From the NCBI RefSeq assembly GCF_000003605.2, contig NW_003120919.1:511985-543170 (forward strand): 31,186 nt of DNA. Direction: 5' to 3'. The DNA comes from Saccoglossus kowalevskii (taxonomy: Eukaryota; Hemichordata; Enteropneusta; Harrimaniidae). Position numbers and translations under genes: made by a program. The notes under the pieces were generated by a model that saw nothing but the letters and a program-made list of their open reading frames with translations, was not told where the DNA came from and ran no database searches. Shown here one piece after another: positions 1 through 24,442 of this stretch. Each line of letters begins with the position of its first letter. Positions within the stretch are counted from its first letter, which is position 1.

Positions 1-1
1 T

Positions 2-133
2 TTACAGCTGCTTGTCTCGTGCTTTACGTGTAGCCATGGTGTAGCCAAGTCCGGGCCCAAGTGTTTCACATTCCGACTCGTTGTGGTCGGAGTCCATGAC
101 ACGTAATTTGGTCACGAAAACCAAGTCTGCCAT
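2..133 (-). CDS. Possible first coding exon reading off the left edge, unknown product
   Basis: On the minus strand an ATG at 133-131 in a favourable start context (A at -3, G at +4) opens a 43-codon frame beginning MADLVFVTKLRVMDSDHNES and ending with TAA at 4-2. An in-frame stop lies upstream, so this Met is the natural start. The stretch is richer in CpG than the DNA to its right, and three GTCGAC sites lie upstream (near 235-318), which suits a promoter-proximal exon. A GT lies just before the TAA (AGCT|GTAA), so the frame could instead splice onward outside the window. I recognise no domain. It could be a chance ORF; a transcript would decide. Confidence 0.3.
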   Translation of the reverse strand: MADLVFVTKLRVMDSDHNESECETLGPGLGYTMATRKARDKQL

Positions 134-179
134 GTGCTCAAATTTTCTACCTTCTGTTTATACCTCAATGGTCTGATCA

Positions 180-213
180 ATTAAATCATGGAAGGTACCT
201 TCCATGATTAAAT
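180..213. mobile_element. 20-bp transposon footprint: fused terminal repeats with 7-bp target duplications
   Basis: Positions 187-206 read CATGGAAGGTACCTTCCATG, a perfect palindrome. It is flanked directly on both sides by ATTAAAT (180-186 and 207-213), an exact 7-bp direct repeat. The first 11 bases, and the last 9 read on the other strand, are identical to the tip of the 31-bp terminal inverted repeat of the 855-bp element at 23581-24435, which also has a 7-bp duplication. I read this as what is left after excision or near-total internal deletion of a copy of that family. It lies in the putative upstream region of the left-edge exon. Palindrome and flanks are seen directly; the excision history is inference. 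Confidence 0.75.
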
Positions 214-284
214 TTTCATAATCGCTTTACATACTGTCGACGTTCTTCTCCAAATTTCCTTTCATTCGTTTTCTTTCGTCACTG

Positions 285-318
285 TCATAGTCGACCTCAA
301 GACGGTTTCATAGTCGAC
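285..318. promoter_or_regulatory. Duplicated TCATAGTCGAC motif in CpG-containing upstream region
   Basis: TCATAGTCGAC occurs at 285-295 and again at 308-318, and a further GTCGAC lies near 235. The surrounding 215-330 holds more CpG than the AT-rich DNA that follows. Placement upstream of the possible minus-strand first exon suggests promoter DNA, but no TATA box or initiator can be defined. Confidence 0.2.
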
Positions 319-329
319 TGCTTGAAGAG

Positions 330-2598
330 CGAGAAATTCAATGAAATTAAATTTGTGGACGATCGTTAATGGAATGCGTGTAACTTGTACCTCGGACTTG
401 TACCTTGTGTTTGTTTTTGGTTTTTTCAAAAATTTAATAAAACATTTTGGCATTTGTTTTATGCACAGAAATACATATTTTATTAACAAAATGTATTTTC
501 CTATGAAAAAAAGCATATTTTTCTCTCCATAACAAGTTTACAAGTAGATGTTAATGAGGATTAGCCATGTTTGCAAATTACAAATGTCTATAGATTAAAC
601 TGAAATATCAACATAAATTCATATTTTCGTTTCATAGCAACACTCAAATTTATTTATTTTATCGTTTATCTAAGTGACTGCTGAAACTAGAGACAACCTC
701 GCTGTAAGTACAGACACACACAAGGGCCAAATGTACAAGTTTGATAAATTTCTGGTCATTATTCACCTGGGTAAGACAACATTTTTCTAGCAAAAATAAT
801 ACGCTGCAATCTTTAATTAAGGTAGCGAGAAGGGAAATTTTCATTTTGTTGACTTTTCAAGAATTTATGAAAAGGGTTACTTTAGACCTTGATAGATATT
901 CTCAGCTTTTAAAAAGATCAAAATTTTGAAATGCCAGCTGTGTTCTCCAATTTTCACTTTAGTGCTTGAAATTATTAGTTATCTGACACACGTAGTGGGT
1001 TCTATGATATCAGTGGTTAACAAGTTTGGCCATTCTTACAATAATGCAGCAAATCTGCAGTATTTTATTATCCAAAACTGTTTTTCACGTTTTTCTTGAG
1101 ATCAAGTTTTGATTCAGAGTGGCTTATTGGGGCCGCCGTCAAATCAAGGCTTCAGGCTAGAACATTCAAACTTACACTAATCGTTCACAAGCCAGTGACA
1201 TTTCGAAATACGTCTGGGTTTACCACAGAATAATAGTCTGTAAAAGGTGCCAAGTACAAAATAATTAGGGGACAAAAAACACAAACCTGCATAGAAATCA
1301 GAAGAATAGGTCTTTTGATTATTGGGAACACATTTCAATGAACTCGATTATGGACAATGCATGGTCAAAATTTCCCAGAAATTCCAAAGAGTGCTCTCGC
1401 ATCACGAATTTAGTCATTTTTACATTGTTCGCCATTTTTGTTGTCACATGGTAATTATGTACACAGTGACTTCCCAATTTGTGCGAACTTGTCCCTCTAT
1501 AATTAGACTTTTGAATCATATACACTAAATTACAGTTCCGACTGAGACAACAGACAGAGAATGCTTTATTCAAAAAACATCAAAGCCTGCACGCTACCTT
1601 AATGATTGTAATAAACAAAGCTGAAAGTGAGTGACATTGTTGAAAAAAATATCAAATATAAAACTGCATAAATCCAGAACATATCCACCAAAACATTAAC
1701 CCTTTGAATGACATCAAGTTGATGTAATATTTTGTATGTCTCTTTCAACAATTTTAATTTTCCATTGCCAACAGTTCATGACCAAAAGTATGATAAACAG
1801 TAAGAGGATATACTTGTGAAAGCTGAACAAATTTTACTCTGCTGTACAAAGAGAACATTTTCTAAAATCTGTATTAGAAACCGTGGCTTCTATTAAAATG
1901 GTACAATGCAACAGAGGGAATGCGGCTTTTATTAGAGCATCTACAATATGAGAATGATGAATTTTTGGTTCACAATTATTCAAAACAAATTGGTGCGACT
2001 TCTATTAGGGATGTGACATCTAATACAGTAAACTTGTGATCATACGGTAAAAAAATCTCGTCTGAAACTACGAGAGGAATGTATGCCTGAAATCAAACCA
2101 GTTATGGCTGCGTAAATACATGAAAGGTCTCTGAAAACTCCAACAGTGGAAATATACTGAACAATTTCTATTCAATTTTAAAATACGTAATTAAATTTCA
2201 ACTTTAGAAAACAAAACCGAAGCAAAGCATGCATGTATGAGCAATGTTGCAAACATGATACAATTCTGGGCATGTAGATTCCTGACTCGAAAATAATGTA
2301 CAAACCGATTCTGTGAAATAAAGCTCCAGTCAATAAAATGATGTAAACTACATACACTAACCCAACCTCACTAGTTTCAGAGTGGATTAAAACATTGTGG
2401 AGATGGAGCAGCAAGTTGGATTACAACACCAGTAGCTGAATTTATTTATTTTTTAAGTTTGTGGGAACATTCAAACAGTCTGAATTGGTTTGATATGCCA
2501 AATAGTTTTCAACAACAGGCTCATCGACCAGTGACTCATTGCAGAATAGCATCTACATGTAACCGCACAGGTAAGAATGCAATTCATGTTTTTCATCA
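330..2598. other. AT-rich non-coding DNA, nothing recognised
   Basis: Only short frames with no recognisable protein similarity occur here. Small details include a 15-bp odd palindrome ACATCAAGTTGATGT near 1710 following AACCCTTTGAATG, which may be half of a decayed MITE. No RNA gene or intact repeat is supported. Confidence 0.5.
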
Positions 2599-8246: not shown

Positions 8247-9090
8247 TAAAAGTTAAAATAATTAAAGTAGTTAAATCGTAGCTAGTAGAATGGAAAAAAT
8301 AATACTAATTAGCTCATGAATATTAATGACCTCATGAATGCATTATGGGAGATAATTTCTCATTGTATATAATGGAAAACTTGCCACTCTGAAAACTTGC
8401 TAAATATTTTTTTAAATATTTTCAAATATCAGGATTCATATCAATAAAAATATATAACTCGTTCCATGTTCATGTTCATGAGCAAACTACTGAGATATGA
8501 AGAAATAACTCCACCATAGGAACCAATGTAAAAATGATGATTTTTAATATTTTCCAAAACTTAGACTTGTTTTCTCAATTTTCAGTGTCCTGATAGTATA
8601 AACCAATAATAATGAGTACAAACAAACAAATTTTCAATTCGACTCATTATTTCATCTTTCGGTGCAAATGACCAGTTCTTACAAGTCATGTCTGCGTGCA
8701 TGCTAAAGTAAACCAGTGTGATGGACTATTGCAGCATTGTTTGGTTCAATCATAATACCCAATGCAGGTTAAGGCTCCAAAATGACTAAATGACTTCAGT
8801 TCTTACTGAATCACCAACCAATCAGACTGTTACAGACTGCTTTATTGTAAGGAAGGCACTAATTTGTTGATATCACAAAGAAACTACATGAACACAATTT
8901 GGATAATCAGGTGTAATCGCCAACCAGATTTTAAACTGACAAAGACATCAAATATAAAACGGATTGGATTTGGTGATGATTCTATGTGACACCAATTAGT
9001 AGAGCATGTGTTTACTAATAATACATGTAAATCTATGGCATACTTTGTTAGTTTTTTTTAATGATCCAGCATACAATATAAGCAATTTGT
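8247..9090. other. AT-rich non-coding DNA, nothing recognised
   Basis: Includes a near-palindromic TCATGAATATTAATGA around 8315 and a duplicated GTTCATGTTCATG near 8467. No gene or RNA is supported. Confidence 0.5.
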
Positions 9091-9694
9091 TATTTGAGTG
9101 AGTTTCTACAGGAGACTGGAAGAGGGTTAGGGTGAAAATGTAGTCCTAAATTCCATGAAGGTCAGAGAAATGAACCTGTGGAATAGAAACACAATGAACA
9201 TCAAATGTTTTATTTGAGTGAGTTTCTACAGGAGACTGTGGAAGGGGGTTGGGGTGAAAATGTAGTCCTAAATTCCATGAAGGTCAGAGAAATGAACCTG
9301 TGGAATAGAAACACAATGAACATCAAATGTTTTATTTGAGTGAGTTTCTACAGGAGACTGTGGAAGGGGGTTGGGGTGAAAATGTAGTCCTAAATTCCAT
9401 GAAGGTCAGAGAAATGAACCTGTGGAATAGAAACACAATGAACATCAAATGTTTTATTTGAGTGAGTTTCTACAGGAGACTGGAAGAGGGTTGGGGTGAA
9501 AATGTAGTCCTAAATTCCATGAAGGTCAGAGAAATGAACCTGTGGAATAGAAACACAATGAACATCAAATGTTTTATTTGAGTGAGTTTCTACAGGAGAC
9601 TGGAAGAGGGTTGGGGTGAAAATGTAGTCCTAAATTCCATGAAGGTCAGAGAAATGAACCTGTGGAATAGAAACACAATGAACATCAAATGTTT
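9091..9694. repeat. Tandem array, five ~120-122 bp units
   Basis: Units begin TATTTGAGTGAGTTTCTACA at 9091, 9211, 9333, 9455 and 9575. Units 2 and 3 (122 bp, with GACTGTGGAAGGGGGTTGGG) look identical to each other. Units 4 and 5 (120 bp, with GACTGGAAGAGGGTTGGGG) look identical to each other. Unit 1 differs from the last two mainly by GGGTTAGGG. Pairwise identity of neighbours shows very recent duplication. Two units are not a multiple of three, so this is not a coding repeat. Confidence 0.95.
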
Positions 9695-10937
9695 TAGAGA
9701 AATTCTTTCACCCATATTATACTACAAGTACATAGAAGAGAAGCATGAATTTACCAAGTCTGTGCATAGAACAATATTACAGGACAACACGTGGGACTCT
9801 GCTTTTACAATGATGACAATGATACTACCGTAGTGAGGGAAAATCAACTTTAACTTTAACTTGAGGCAATGATAAGGAATTTATCAAACTCGAGAAATTG
9901 ACATGTAAACAAGACATAAAATGTATAACACATTGTACAGGTCCATCTCAATGAACTGTACCCAACATGTAACACATGATTTACTAGCAAGTGGCTCAGA
10001 CATAAAGACACATCTATAAACTAATCAGTTAAGTGATTTACAGGCCTAATTGCTTCAAGGTCCTGGGATATAGAGACTTGACCTTACAATACAACCCTGA
10101 CACACTAATAACAAGTCTCTAGGGAAAAAAAATGCAACTGTATGAAAAGATTGAATACTTCCTATACCTGCCTTCATGGACCAGTGGAGACATCCATACA
10201 ACACCAGCTGTTCATTTCCCAACACTAGAGGGCAGCAAACAGGCTCTTCTATCAATTGTTTTTCTGGGATCTTAACTATTTACATACCATCTCATTTGTT
10301 CCCACCAAAATTTTTATGAAACATTTTGAATTTTTCTAGAATTTCTATTCATTTGAACCAAATGAACATAATTTTCCACTGGCACATGTCAAATTTTTGA
10401 GAACAAAATTATGTAAGTTTTATTTTCTGACAGATATAGACTTGGTTGTTAAAAAGATATGTTGTATGGTTTCACAGTCAATTGAAACAAGGTAGTGAAC
10501 AATGAACTGGCTCATAAAACAAATGTTATTCTATTCTTGACTACCAACTAACAGCCAGTTAACGGCCACCATAGTAACTGACCTGTAAAAGTACACGAAG
10601 TATCCAAAAGGTTAAAATGTCAGAAACAAGTAAGCACAACCCACCACTGACCTCTCTAATACTGCAGTTTGTCAAAGAGAAGATGCATACTCATAAATAT
10701 GCCATGGCACATACTCAGAAGAAGTCGCCCCCAAGGGAAGTCATGATTAATTTACGTGGCAGAAGGTGAACTCAAAGGTTGGGGTTAATGAGCATGAAAA
10801 CTACTACCTCAAGAATGTTTCTTTAAGTGTATGGTACACCTCCAGGCAGGATTAAACTGTTTTTCCCCCCAAATTTTGATTAAGACCGGTAACCTAATGA
10901 GAAATTGTTTATTTTGTCCAAAATTAACAACAAGCAG
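9695..10937. other. Non-coding DNA, nothing recognised apart from one CTCF-like site
   Basis: Open frames (one runs out of the last tandem unit to 9833) have no recognisable product. No inverted-repeat pair was found. Confidence 0.45.
10221..10237 (+). promoter_or_regulatory. CTCF-like site (best of four)
   Basis: AACACTAGAGGGCAGCA differs from the CTCF core form CCACTAGRGGGCAGC at only one core position. It has the same orientation as the sites at 5206 and 16768 and is opposite to the one at 13573. Confidence 0.35.
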
Positions 10938-17747: not shown

Positions 17748-18364
17748 AACATTAAGTAATTCATATACAAAATTAGTTGAGCATCATACTAGCTTTATTA
17801 GAAGCACAGCTTCAAAAGAAGCAAACACCAGGCAAAAACTGTATACATGTATACTGCATACTGGATACTGGATCATTGAAATATGATGTCATTTACATAA
17901 GCACATGTGCTTTTAAATAGGAGGAATATTCATGTGGTATGATGTTTGCAGGGATATTCACTAGGTTTTATAATCACTGATCTGTGAAAGAAATAGCTCA
18001 TTTGACTGTCATGTTCAGGGTTTTAATGCATCCATCAGTGAAAAACAAAATTAAAACCCAGACAGCATTTTATCGGAGTCCTACTACTCGAGCCAGCTCC
18101 ACTAAACCTTTGGGGTTGAACTTTGATAGGGTTGACTCCCAACATGGCCCGACCGTGTATACGCATCAGGGCCCAACTATCGTGCAGTGTTTCCTGTTTA
18201 TTCGAGATACAAGTACCTAAATCATAATACCAGTGCATTGTCTTTTCTACCTCCATGCTCTGTCTCGTGACTGTTTTTCTCCCAGCTCAACAGCATCATG
18301 CCTCCCCCCGACCGTGTAAAATGTATTAGAGATAATAATCTCCTGTTAATCGGTGGGAGGAACA
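17748..18364. other. Non-coding DNA with some CpG, nothing recognised
   Basis: CCGACCGTGTA occurs twice (near 18150 and 18308). Frames at 17984-18220 and 18035-18256 overlap on opposite strands and have no known motif. Confidence 0.4.
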
Positions 18365-18533
18365 GTAGTTAAGCTCTGATAAGAATGCTGCCGTGTGGAC
18401 ATAGCAAGTAGTTCAGCTCTGATAGAATGCTGCCGTGTGAACATAGCAAGTAGTTCAGCTCTGATAGAATGCTGCCGTGTGAACATAGCAAGTAGTTCAG
18501 CTCTGATAGAATGCTGCCGTGTGAACATAGCAA
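18365..18533. repeat. Tandem array, four 42-43 bp units
   Basis: Units start GTAGTTMAGCTCTGATA at 18365, 18408, 18450 and 18492. Units 2-4 look identical; unit 1 has three small differences, including one extra base. Because 42 is a multiple of three, a minus-strand frame (18346-18606) reads through three units as MFTRQHSIRAELLA repeats. No other sign of coding is present, so I treat it as a minisatellite. Confidence 0.95.
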
Positions 18534-20733
18534 TAGTATGAAAGCACAAATTTAAAATAGTTAAATGAGATACTGATGTAGATGTACTGTAATCATGCAG
18601 CTGCAACCAGACAACATTAAGTGATTAACTCTTATGACCTGGGTGAGGGTTAAAGAGAAAGTGTATTCGGTGAACTTATTGGCACAACATCTGGAATATT
18701 CAAACTTTGACAGTCTTGAATTTTTCTCTAAGGACAAAGCTTAAATTACACATTCATTTCACTGATGCAAGGAACTTGATAGATAAAGTATTATCAAAGA
18801 TGGACTGGAACAGGAAGTCAGTAGAAGACAAAAGATTTTGTCATTAGCGTGGGGGAAAGTTGGTCAGCGTAGGGGGGAAACAGAGGTGTTAATCTGAGAA
18901 TTTATTGTCTATTCTTGTTTGTGATTGGTCCTGTTTTGGGGGATCGTGATGTAGCTCCGTCTTCGAGAATGAGGTCTTCTGTCGCAAGGGATGGGCAGTT
19001 TGAAATTCTGTATGCGCACACTGGAAGTTTTTCAAATAAGGTGAATAAATGGTTGAACTGAGGTCAAAGGTCATATCACTTGTTAATTGTAACAGGGCCA
19101 CATCAGTGACCATAAGAATGAGTGAAATCTGATCAGGTTGTGTACAGAGTTATTTGTAGACGCATTACACAACCTTTACACCAAGCAACAAAGAACTACG
19201 AACAAGAACCTCTGCAAATAGATCAGATTGCTAAGAGACTTATTCCCACATTCAACTCCGGGTACACAACTATTCATGCAGATACAGATCTGTTAAAAAT
19301 AAATTCATAAATGGGTCCTACTGTTACTTTTAGAAAGGCATTTTTCTGGCCAAAATCTTAGAGCAATATTTTGCGCATAAATATGTTCTTACAATTTATT
19401 TATTCATTTTGAACCAAACTTGTAGCAAATGAAAAACGATTCACTACATGTCGTGATCAAAGTTTAGGAAAGATGACGCAAGATGACTTTGAGTTTAAAG
19501 GGTTTGGTTCACACAAAATGTATTTTATTATACAAAACTTGTAAACAGTACATTCATCTTAACACAGTCCCACTTTAGTATGTTCTAATACTGTTATTTG
19601 TTTTCATTATAATTTTGGAAGTCAATTTCACTAAATCATACAGTCAAATCATGCATCTTTGTCATACAGGTGAAGTTACTTTACACAGAAAGTTTATGGT
19701 AGCTGTTTTCACTAGCAAAGTGTTACAAAAACAATCTGTAAGTTGCTTATTGGTTCCATCTGACCTTACATGTACTTGTGTCAAGTTAAGGTGATATCAA
19801 AGATTTAACTAACAAAATAACATCAGATGCATTGAAAAATTTAAGGGATAAAATCTAAAAACCCATAATATTTTATTGTACAATAAATAAGTGGTTTCTT
19901 GTACATACAAGCAGTTGAAAAGTGACAATTATTCCCAAATTAATTATTTGTTGGATTTAAATTAGCTAGTTTCCCTGAAAAACAAAAAGTAATGCTACAA
20001 GGGGTAAAAAAACTTGTAGAACAGAGCACAAAGAACCAAACAATAGTGCCGGAAGGATGGCCTCTTATTCAGAGTATGTATTGTTTCATAAACTTACCTG
20101 ATCACGATTTACACATCGCCAAGGCCTTTTGGACGGAGACCTGTCTTCGAAATCCATGCTTGTCAAGTCACTATAGTAACTACAAGGATAGATTACGTGC
20201 CAAACTACTGGAACAACAACTTGGTAGTTTTCCGCTAAAAAATTTATGAACGATCTATATCGGTTAAGTATCACAGGCATGCAGTCAGTGTGCAAACAAA
20301 CTGCATTATTATGCCACGCTCCATAGACAACACTGAGAGACACACGTGGCTACACTTGGCAGGTATCCAAGGTAGTTCTCATTGGATGATCCATGTGTTT
20401 TGTACAACAATACACATGAATGCATTGTTCAACTCAACACAACAATGACAGTATTCCATTCATCCAGAAATTCAAAATCGTGAACACCCCCAACTTACTA
20501 AAAAATCAATGAAACTCCCATGCACGTATGCATTGTGTTGTTTAGAAACTTTCAGCATTTTGTGAGCAGTTCTTACAGACTGAACTGATACAAAAATCTA
20601 TGAAATTGAATGACAACTATTTTATTTACTAAGAACCTCATACCACAAAATACATCATTCTGTGACTGTATGCTTAAATTTTGGCAAACTTGCATGTTGC
20701 CATTACTTGGACTATATAGTGAAAACTTGCAAA
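18534..20733. other. AT-rich non-coding DNA, nothing recognised
   Basis: A short G-rich duplication (AGCGTGGGGGAAA / AGCGTAGGGGGGAAA) lies near 18846-18880. Several 60-85 codon frames occur on both strands without motif or convincing splice signals. Confidence 0.45.
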
Positions 20734-23573: not shown

Positions 23574-23580
23574 CTCCAAC

Positions 23581-23611
23581 CATGGAAGGTAAAAAGAGAG
23601 GAGATAGAACG
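23581..23611 (+). repeat. Left terminal inverted repeat of the 855-bp element
   Basis: 31 bases starting CATGGAAGGTAAAAAGAGAG. It matches the right end except for A instead of G at position 28. The first 11 bases also make the palindrome at 187-206. Confidence 0.9.
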
Positions 23612-24268
23612 CTATTGTTCTCCCTTGTTCGATGATCGTTTCGATTTATTTACTTGGTAAACAATTCCGTAATTGATTACGCAAATAATTAATATTCGGG
23701 TCGGCTCAATTCAAACATGACAACAAGCAAGACAGCAATATAACCATAACCCAACATCTTTCCCTATTTGAGTATTTCAATCATGGACAATAACTGTAAC
23801 AATCGTTAAAATGAAATGAAAAATATGTATTTATATGCTCATATCAGAAAACTGACACAACAATAACTGTTCGTGATCACACCAGGGTTTTAACATCGCA
23901 CCACCTTCCATATGATCACACACACAACGTATTTATAAGTATATTTGTTGTGTCGAGGCGGTAACAAAATGGCGAAACTATTGCGAAAAAATTTTGTTTT
24001 TTCAAACAAGACAAACAAGACAAAGCTTACTCTAAAGTACCTGACATAAAGTCCCACTTGAGCTTTTTGAATACTTCGGGAGACAACCGGGCGTGTAGTT
24101 TTTTCGTCTTTAAAAATGGAACAAGTTTACGTGCAGAGACCGAGCAGCGTATCATCCACTCACGCTGGAAAACAACTGACGAGTGCTTCGTTTCCGGTGT
24201 CGGGCCTTGTCAATGACCTATGACACGTGAACCTTTCTTCCGTCTCTTCACTGATGCGCAGTGCCACT

Positions 24269-24295
24269 CGTGACTGATTTTTTTTTTCAGTCACG
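24269..24295. other. Hairpin with 9-bp perfect stem and all-T loop
   Basis: CGTGACTGA (24269-24277) and TCAGTCACG (24287-24295) form a perfect stem around nine T. It lies inside the 855-bp element. It resembles a palindromic protein site or foldback rather than a terminator in this context. Confidence 0.6.
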
Positions 24296-24404
24296 AAAAA
24301 TGTGAGTTCAGCCCATTTTGCTGAGTTAATAAGCGGTACTATAAACAATAGCAATAAGGCGATATTGTCAGCTTGAAACAAAAGAAATAAATCGGATTAA
24401 AATT

Positions 24405-24435
24405 CGTCCTATCTCCTCTCTTTTTACCTTCCATG
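24405..24435 (-). repeat. Right terminal inverted repeat of the 855-bp element
   Basis: Read on the minus strand from 24435 it begins CATGGAAGGTAAAAAGAGAG and continues in agreement with the left repeat to 31 bases with one difference. Confidence 0.9.
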
Positions 24436-24442
24436 CTCCAAC

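Follow-up and report, generated by a model that had tools for sequence, protein, structure and literature searches.

Positions 180–213 of the DNA stretch analysed here, a 31,186-nucleotide piece of the Saccoglossus kowalevskii genome to which we refer as the window, carry an excision scar of the P-superfamily type. Its parent is a P-superfamily family with the end CATGGAAGGTACTAACGGAAGG, and not the family of the 855-bp element found elsewhere in the window. The scar was probably not made locally but inherited inside a dispersed repeat, and its 20-bp form was most likely derived from a 32-bp form by a 12-bp deletion between GTAC words. A preliminary description of the window had correctly proposed a P-type scar, but our results depart from that account in the parent, in where the scar arose, and in the length of the stubs; one possible new quantitative trait has emerged.

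A perfect palindrome between 7-bp duplications

As previously described, the scar consists of ATTAAAT, the 20-mer CATGGAAGGTACCTTCCATG, and a second, exact ATTAAAT, and the 20-mer is identical to its own reverse complement (Table 1). The perfect symmetry around the scar extends over 26 bp (184–209), and none of the other three perfect palindromes of at least 16 bp in the window is as long. The tip CATGGAAGGTA, searched with up to one mismatch, occurs at four places in the window, all of them exact, compared to 0.63 expected; two of these are the arms of the palindrome and the others are the tips of the 855-bp element, which is likewise flanked, as had been noted, by an exact 7-bp duplication (CTCCAAC).

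Table 1. Positions of the scar, the surrounding repeat, and the 855-bp element in the window.
Feature	Position	Strand	Basis
Dispersed-repeat stretch carrying the scar	1..398	.	Limits set by the end of the query at 398 and by N preceding the window
Left copy of the 7-bp target-site duplication ATTAAAT	180..186	.	Sequence; same duplication in scar-bearing repeat copies
Perfect 20-bp palindrome CATGGAAGGTACCTTCCATG, in which the stubs of two transposon ends overlap at GTAC	187..206	.	
Right copy of the 7-bp target-site duplication ATTAAAT	207..213	.	Sequence; same duplication in scar-bearing repeat copies
7-bp target duplication CTCCAAC, left of the 855-bp element	23574..23580	.	
855-bp non-autonomous P-superfamily element, of a family other than the scar parent, with the tip CATGGAAGGTA in common	23581..24435	.	
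Left 31-bp terminal inverted repeat of the 855-bp element	23581..23611	+	
Right 31-bp terminal inverted repeat of the 855-bp element	24405..24435	-	
7-bp target duplication CTCCAAC, right of the 855-bp element	24436..24442	.	

In the genome to which the window belongs (572,110,611 bases, or 572 Mb, in 4830 contigs), the 20-mer is present at 13 exact places, compared to 0.0002 expected from the base composition of the window. On symmetry alone, the palindrome could have arisen by chance or have a regulatory role, with no link to transposition, but the excess of exact copies together with the 7-bp duplications leaves such an origin with a practically negligible probability, in agreement with the earlier judgment that chance was very unlikely.

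The preliminary description had also placed the scar just upstream of a possible first exon. This was not supported: of the 13 stop-to-stop frames of at least 95 amino acids in the window, the seven outside the N stretch matched no Pfam family, a search that short exons could escape. No Rfam match was found in the window. Two tandem arrays are also present, one at 9090–9696 with five copies of a 120-bp unit (98% alike) and one at 18364–18537 with about four copies of a 42-bp unit (96% alike).

Scars of the same kind throughout the genome

Joints of two tips, searched as CATGGAAGG followed by 0 to 30 bases and CCTTCCATG, were identified at 139 places in the genome, compared to 0.06 expected, and backward-pattern controls returned no place in the whole genome for either the 20-mer or the tip-to-tip pattern. 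Flanks were compared in a sample of 78 scars, comprising the first 50 of the 139 joints, eight further places of the 20-bp form, and 20 other scars; this sample includes L017 and counts as two the window site (L005) and L010, which share flanks. A perfect 7-bp duplication is present at 49 of the 78 joints, and at least six of the seven bases agree at 69. The remaining nine match at fewer than six bases, and one of the 13 exact 20-mers (L008) has a duplication of only 4/7 bases. Perfect duplications of 5, 6, 8, 9, or 10 bp were found at none of 77 scars, and when the left flank of one scar was paired with the right flank of another, only 5 of 5852 mismatched pairs gave a perfect 7-bp match. The search for other tip-bounded copies with 7-bp duplications that the preliminary description had called for was thus strongly positive, and the genome-wide scars agree with its reading of terminal-repeat stubs between the copies of a 7-bp target duplication.

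Across 34 sites with a perfect duplication, the duplicated words have a palindromic motif in common that favours T at +2 and A at +6 and extends past the duplication to T at -2 and A at +10. Counting both strands, T is found in 55/68 cases at -2 and in 57/68 at +2, and A occupies the mirror positions, +10 and +6.

Two of the scars are more complex. In L118 (C2077:8307-8377) an additional CATGGAAGGTA lies between the left GTCAGGC and the scar, and the 7-bp duplication is perfect when this additional tip is counted, so that it resembles a copied insert from repair. In L124 (C3050:49237-49313) the right tip of the scar doubles as the start of another end, CATGGAAGGTAGTAGGGACAG, suggesting that scars or elements are nested there.

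The parent of the scars

The 855-bp element has inverted arms of 31 nt with 97% complementarity. Among the six full elements of this type that were read, four have a 7-bp duplication; in the remaining two an 8-bp duplication fits, with 8/8 and 7/8 matching bases. A second family is defined by the sequence CATGGAAGGTACTAACGV, which has 132 exact matches in the genome, scars included, and opposed pairs of which bound short elements. Ten such pairs were inspected at their ends, and the end was found to be about 33 bp long, CATGGAAGGTACTAACGGAAGGAGCCACGACGC. In these ten elements, hereafter the GTACTAACGG family, the 7-bp duplication is perfect in seven, matches at 6/7 bases in two, and is unreadable (N) in one; the terminal repeats of about 33 bp differ by 0–3 mismatches in nine, and the tenth has a one-base gap after approximately base 19. 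Two members read from end to end are 871 and 927 bp long and 83% alike; at the threshold applied, neither matched the 855-bp element at the nucleotide level.

The exact 17-nt stub of the GTACTAACGG-family end, GTACTAACG, is present in 62 scars (22 + 40, both counts from searches favouring long stubs), whereas the exact 16-nt stub of the 855-bp family is present in a single scar genome-wide; L057 and L083 resemble that end. Of the 97 scars whose sequence was inspected, at least 62 were therefore made by the GTACTAACGG family. The preliminary description had named the terminal repeat of the 855-bp element as the source and had divided the palindrome into its first 11 and last 9 bases, a reading that would have the two stubs joined through TA. 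The tip that both have in common and the 7-bp duplications at both loci are compatible with this origin, and the division is a possible one; yet it is one division only, and it is opposed by the count of one scar versus 62 and by the 32-bp copies at the same site as the window scar, which spell GTACTAACG and so indicate the other parent. We consider it very improbable that the 855-bp family left the scar, and this family was rejected as the parent.

Placement in the P superfamily

The assignment of the 855-type family is based on a copy at C3427:133882-138514, which is bounded by ends of this family and is decayed, without a matching target duplication. Its ends are 87% identical to the 855-bp element over bases 144–855 and 95% over bases 1–59. 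Inside this copy we identified PF12017, the P-element HTH domain (E 6.7e-5; 23.6 bits at a cut-off of 23), and PF21787, an RNase H domain (33.3 bits, above the cut-off, with one internal stop). These P-type transposase signatures between 855-type ends tie the family to the P superfamily. Across genomes, PF21787 has 13 matches in the acorn worm's own genome and none in 14 control genomes.

The GTACTAACGG family would belong to the same superfamily, judging from the common tip, the length of the ends, the 7-bp duplication, and the form of its scars. The terminal inverted repeats are 31 bp in the 855-bp element and about 33 bp in the GTACTAACGG family, where about 31 bp is expected for the P superfamily. 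Two further traits of the superfamily are present, namely a target duplication of 7 or 8 bp (in the scars, the GTACTAACGG elements, and the 855-type elements) and a palindromic target motif wider than the duplication (34 sites).

Among the candidate loci examined, no transposase-bearing copy could be tied to the GTACTAACGG family. A P-type match on contig C2502 has one such end 3.9 kb away, but no second end was found in the stretches retrieved, and it was set aside as a candidate for the transposase of this family; similarly, PF21787 is matched by a 610-aa frame on C1630, yet the 4.5 kb examined there showed no pair of matching tips. On C2502 (L109, 327000-330600), fragments of a P-type transposase adjoin frames whose translations, judged by eye, resemble part of a LINE.

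Length of the tails and the joints between them

The stubs may also carry information on where the ends were cut. In the 62 scars with an intact 17-nt stub, the match to the end reaches base 18 in 22 and base 19 in 17, and it reaches base 20 in none; the chance of 0/17 at base 20 would be about 0.008 if that base were random. Some of the A's at base 19 could also be credited to the opposite stub, though not easily in L117, L122, L123, L125, and L126. As 17 of the 62 stubs reach 19 nt and none 20, the comparison suggests tails of 19 nt in the GTACTAACGG family, i.e., a 19-nt stagger, compared to 17 in Drosophila, and the stubs in the scars point to a cut inside the terminal repeat. The 17-nt stagger cited in the preliminary description is thus shorter than the longest stubs here. 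An upper limit of 34 bp (17 + 17) for the scars, which fitted 55 of the first 57, was dropped once stubs of 18 and 19 nt had been found.

Joints were classified in 97 scars, with L010 omitted as a repeat of the window site and the first 19 nt of the GTACTAACGG-family end taken as the tail on either side. In this model, seven tail joints with an overlap of at least 2 nt are possible, the longest overlaps being GTAC and CATG with 4 nt each. Five of the seven are detectable by the search pattern, and all five occur, together in 44 of the 97 scars: the 32-bp joint with overlap CG (25 scars), the 20-bp joint with overlap GTAC (12), the 23-bp and 26-bp joints, both with overlap TA (3 each), and the 24-bp joint with overlap AC/GT (1). 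Single-base overlaps account for 12 scars. The other 41 go beyond simple overlap joints; four are blunt joins, and the rest include mutated 32-bp forms and apparent copied inserts (e.g., L067, L115, and L116).

The scars could alternatively be very small mobile elements in their own right, each insertion of which duplicates 7 bp, as they lie at many places with 7-bp duplications of their own and a common palindromic target motif. We give this very little credence. Scar lengths range from 20 to 44 bp and the middles are variable, in the manner of end-joining products, with blunt joins and apparent copied inserts among them, and units of this size would seem too short to hold binding sites for a Drosophila-type transposase.

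Probable inheritance within a dispersed repeat

The scar in the window is embedded in a repeat. With window positions 1–398 as the query, 45 matches at 36 genome places were obtained, including the window's own, and 20 further repeat places were retrieved and compared at the scar site. The 20-bp scar is present at the same site in 10 copies, the window and L010 among them; point changes have altered it in some of these, and in L145 it is one base short. Four other copies (L143, L144, L146, and L147) have a 32-bp scar at this site, with GTACTAACGTTAGTAC in the middle. The ATTAAAT duplication is common to the 20- and 32-bp forms; its left copy is mutated in L144. The presence of one site in many copies suggests that the scar in the window was probably inherited with the repeat. 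The earlier reading of L005 and L010 as two alleles became unnecessary once the repeat family had been found, and a shared repeat boundary at position 398 was discarded, as the query itself stopped there and only the L005/L010 alignment breaks at that point.

The 32-bp copies are more distant from the window than the other 20-bp copies, both in identity to the repeat query (80–88% vs. 91–96%) and over the compared flanks (92–94% vs. 96–98%). The site is adjoined by GATCA in all 10 copies with the 20-bp scar and by GATCG in all four copies with the 32-bp scar and in L149. L150, on a long branch, retains the left part of a 32-type scar, yet has GATCA. A tree of the repeat copies (about 200 bp, rooted on L149) agrees with an order from 32 to 20 bp, with several supports being low. 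L149 and L151 are without the palindrome but rearranged at the site; L152, L154, and L156 align poorly across it, and L153 and L155 have N there. Leaving aside the rearranged L149 and L151, no clean empty site was found among the repeat copies compared, nor any allele with a full element at the scar site. The window and L010 have CATGG at a position where CGTGG is found in most 20-bp copies, and the perfect symmetry in the window may therefore be due to a later CpG change.

The 20-bp form could instead have been made directly by end joining through GTAC, in an excision separate from the one that gave the 32-bp form. GTAC is one of the two longest overlaps that the tails offer, and a further 11 places, with different flanks, also have the 20-bp form. 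At the window site, however, both forms lie in one and the same repeat with the same duplication, and the 20-bp scar is restricted to copies that carry GATCA and are nearest to the window, which makes one insertion and a later deletion the simpler reading. We therefore regard direct joining as unlikely here and prefer a 12-bp deletion from the 32-bp form.

Taken together, we think it likely that a CATGGAAGGTACTAACGGAAGGAGCCACGACGC-ended P transposon inserted in the repeat and was excised to leave a 32-bp scar, which was amplified and shrank to 20 bp, and that the 855-bp element was uninvolved. In this history, the P-superfamily transposon would have entered an ancestral copy of the dispersed repeat and duplicated ATTAAAT, as the flanks suggest. 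A staggered cut inside the terminal repeats would then have left long 3' single-stranded tails of tip sequence on both flanks, in line with the anatomy of the scars and by analogy with the Drosophila P transposase, and the tails would have been joined at their pairing CG dinucleotides, giving the 32-bp palindromic scar of the form seen in four repeat copies. Multiplication of the repeat would have spread the scar with it; many copies have it at this one site, and the order of events is presumed. One branch may then have lost the middle 12 bp between the two GTAC words, as the distribution over the copies suggests, and further amplification of this 20-bp branch would have produced the window as one of its copies.

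Comparison with known P-superfamily systems

The closest parallel is the Drosophila melanogaster P element. Its tip starts with CATG and its terminal inverted repeats are 31 bp (PMC2895639; PMC7776569), and the P transposase cuts 17 nt inside these 31-bp ends (PMC7776569). According to Table 1 of PMC2895639, the excision junctions retain the duplication and up to 17 nt of each end, with small overlaps, and have the same arrangement as here of duplication, stub, stub, and duplication. Palindromic joints via self-complementary dinucleotides occur in both systems, one through AT recurring in 14 Drosophila isolates, and small insertions, many of them templated, are found as well (PMC2895639). The two systems differ in the duplication (8 bp in Drosophila, 7 here) and in the tails (17 nt, against stubs of up to 19 nt here), and the Drosophila junctions come from a laboratory assay, whereas those described here are natural scars in an assembly, one of which was probably copied with a repeat.

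Galileo, also of the P superfamily, resembles the families described here in its mostly 7-bp and few 8-bp duplications (PMC4168063), one 855-type copy here fitting 8 bp, and in a palindromic target motif wider than the duplication (PMC4168063), the motif here reaching -2 and +10. It differs in its target consensus, GTANTAC, and in its long and extendable ends (PMC4168063), compared to ends of about 31–33 bp here; the word "footprint" is absent from the portions of that paper drawn on here (PMC4168063). P elements and P-MITEs of Anopheles gambiae are similar in that short non-autonomous elements have ends of 27–31 bp in common with transposase-bearing ones (PMC1562414). By contrast, their duplications are 8 bp, and the corresponding portions of that paper describe no excision scars (PMC1562414). 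Zebrafish Pdre2/THAP9 is a P-type element whose end also starts with CAT, but with 13-bp ends and an 8-bp duplication (PMC10983969), and Drosophila P elements excised by zebrafish THAP9 show larger flanking deletions (PMC10983969).

Implications

The P-type excision junctions that we found in print in the open-licence literature come from laboratory assays, and natural P-superfamily footprints in a genome were not encountered among the titles surveyed there. The locus in the window offers a caution for the interpretation of such footprints, since even a perfect footprint may have arisen elsewhere than at the locus where it is found. A single assembly here offers dozens of confirmed natural junctions and 139 candidates, from which the position of cleavage, the joints made in repair, and their later decay could be followed. 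We hold it to be an evenly balanced proposition that the genome preserves a natural archive of P-type junctions showing the position of the cut, in a lineage with a 19-nt/7-bp stagger instead of 17/8, where healing often proceeded via annealing of 2–4 nt of the tails and where scars were copied within repeats and shrank along their own palindrome. The archive leads to a testable prediction, namely that a 19-nt stagger with a 7-bp target may exist in a group of transposases known for a long stagger of 17 nt.
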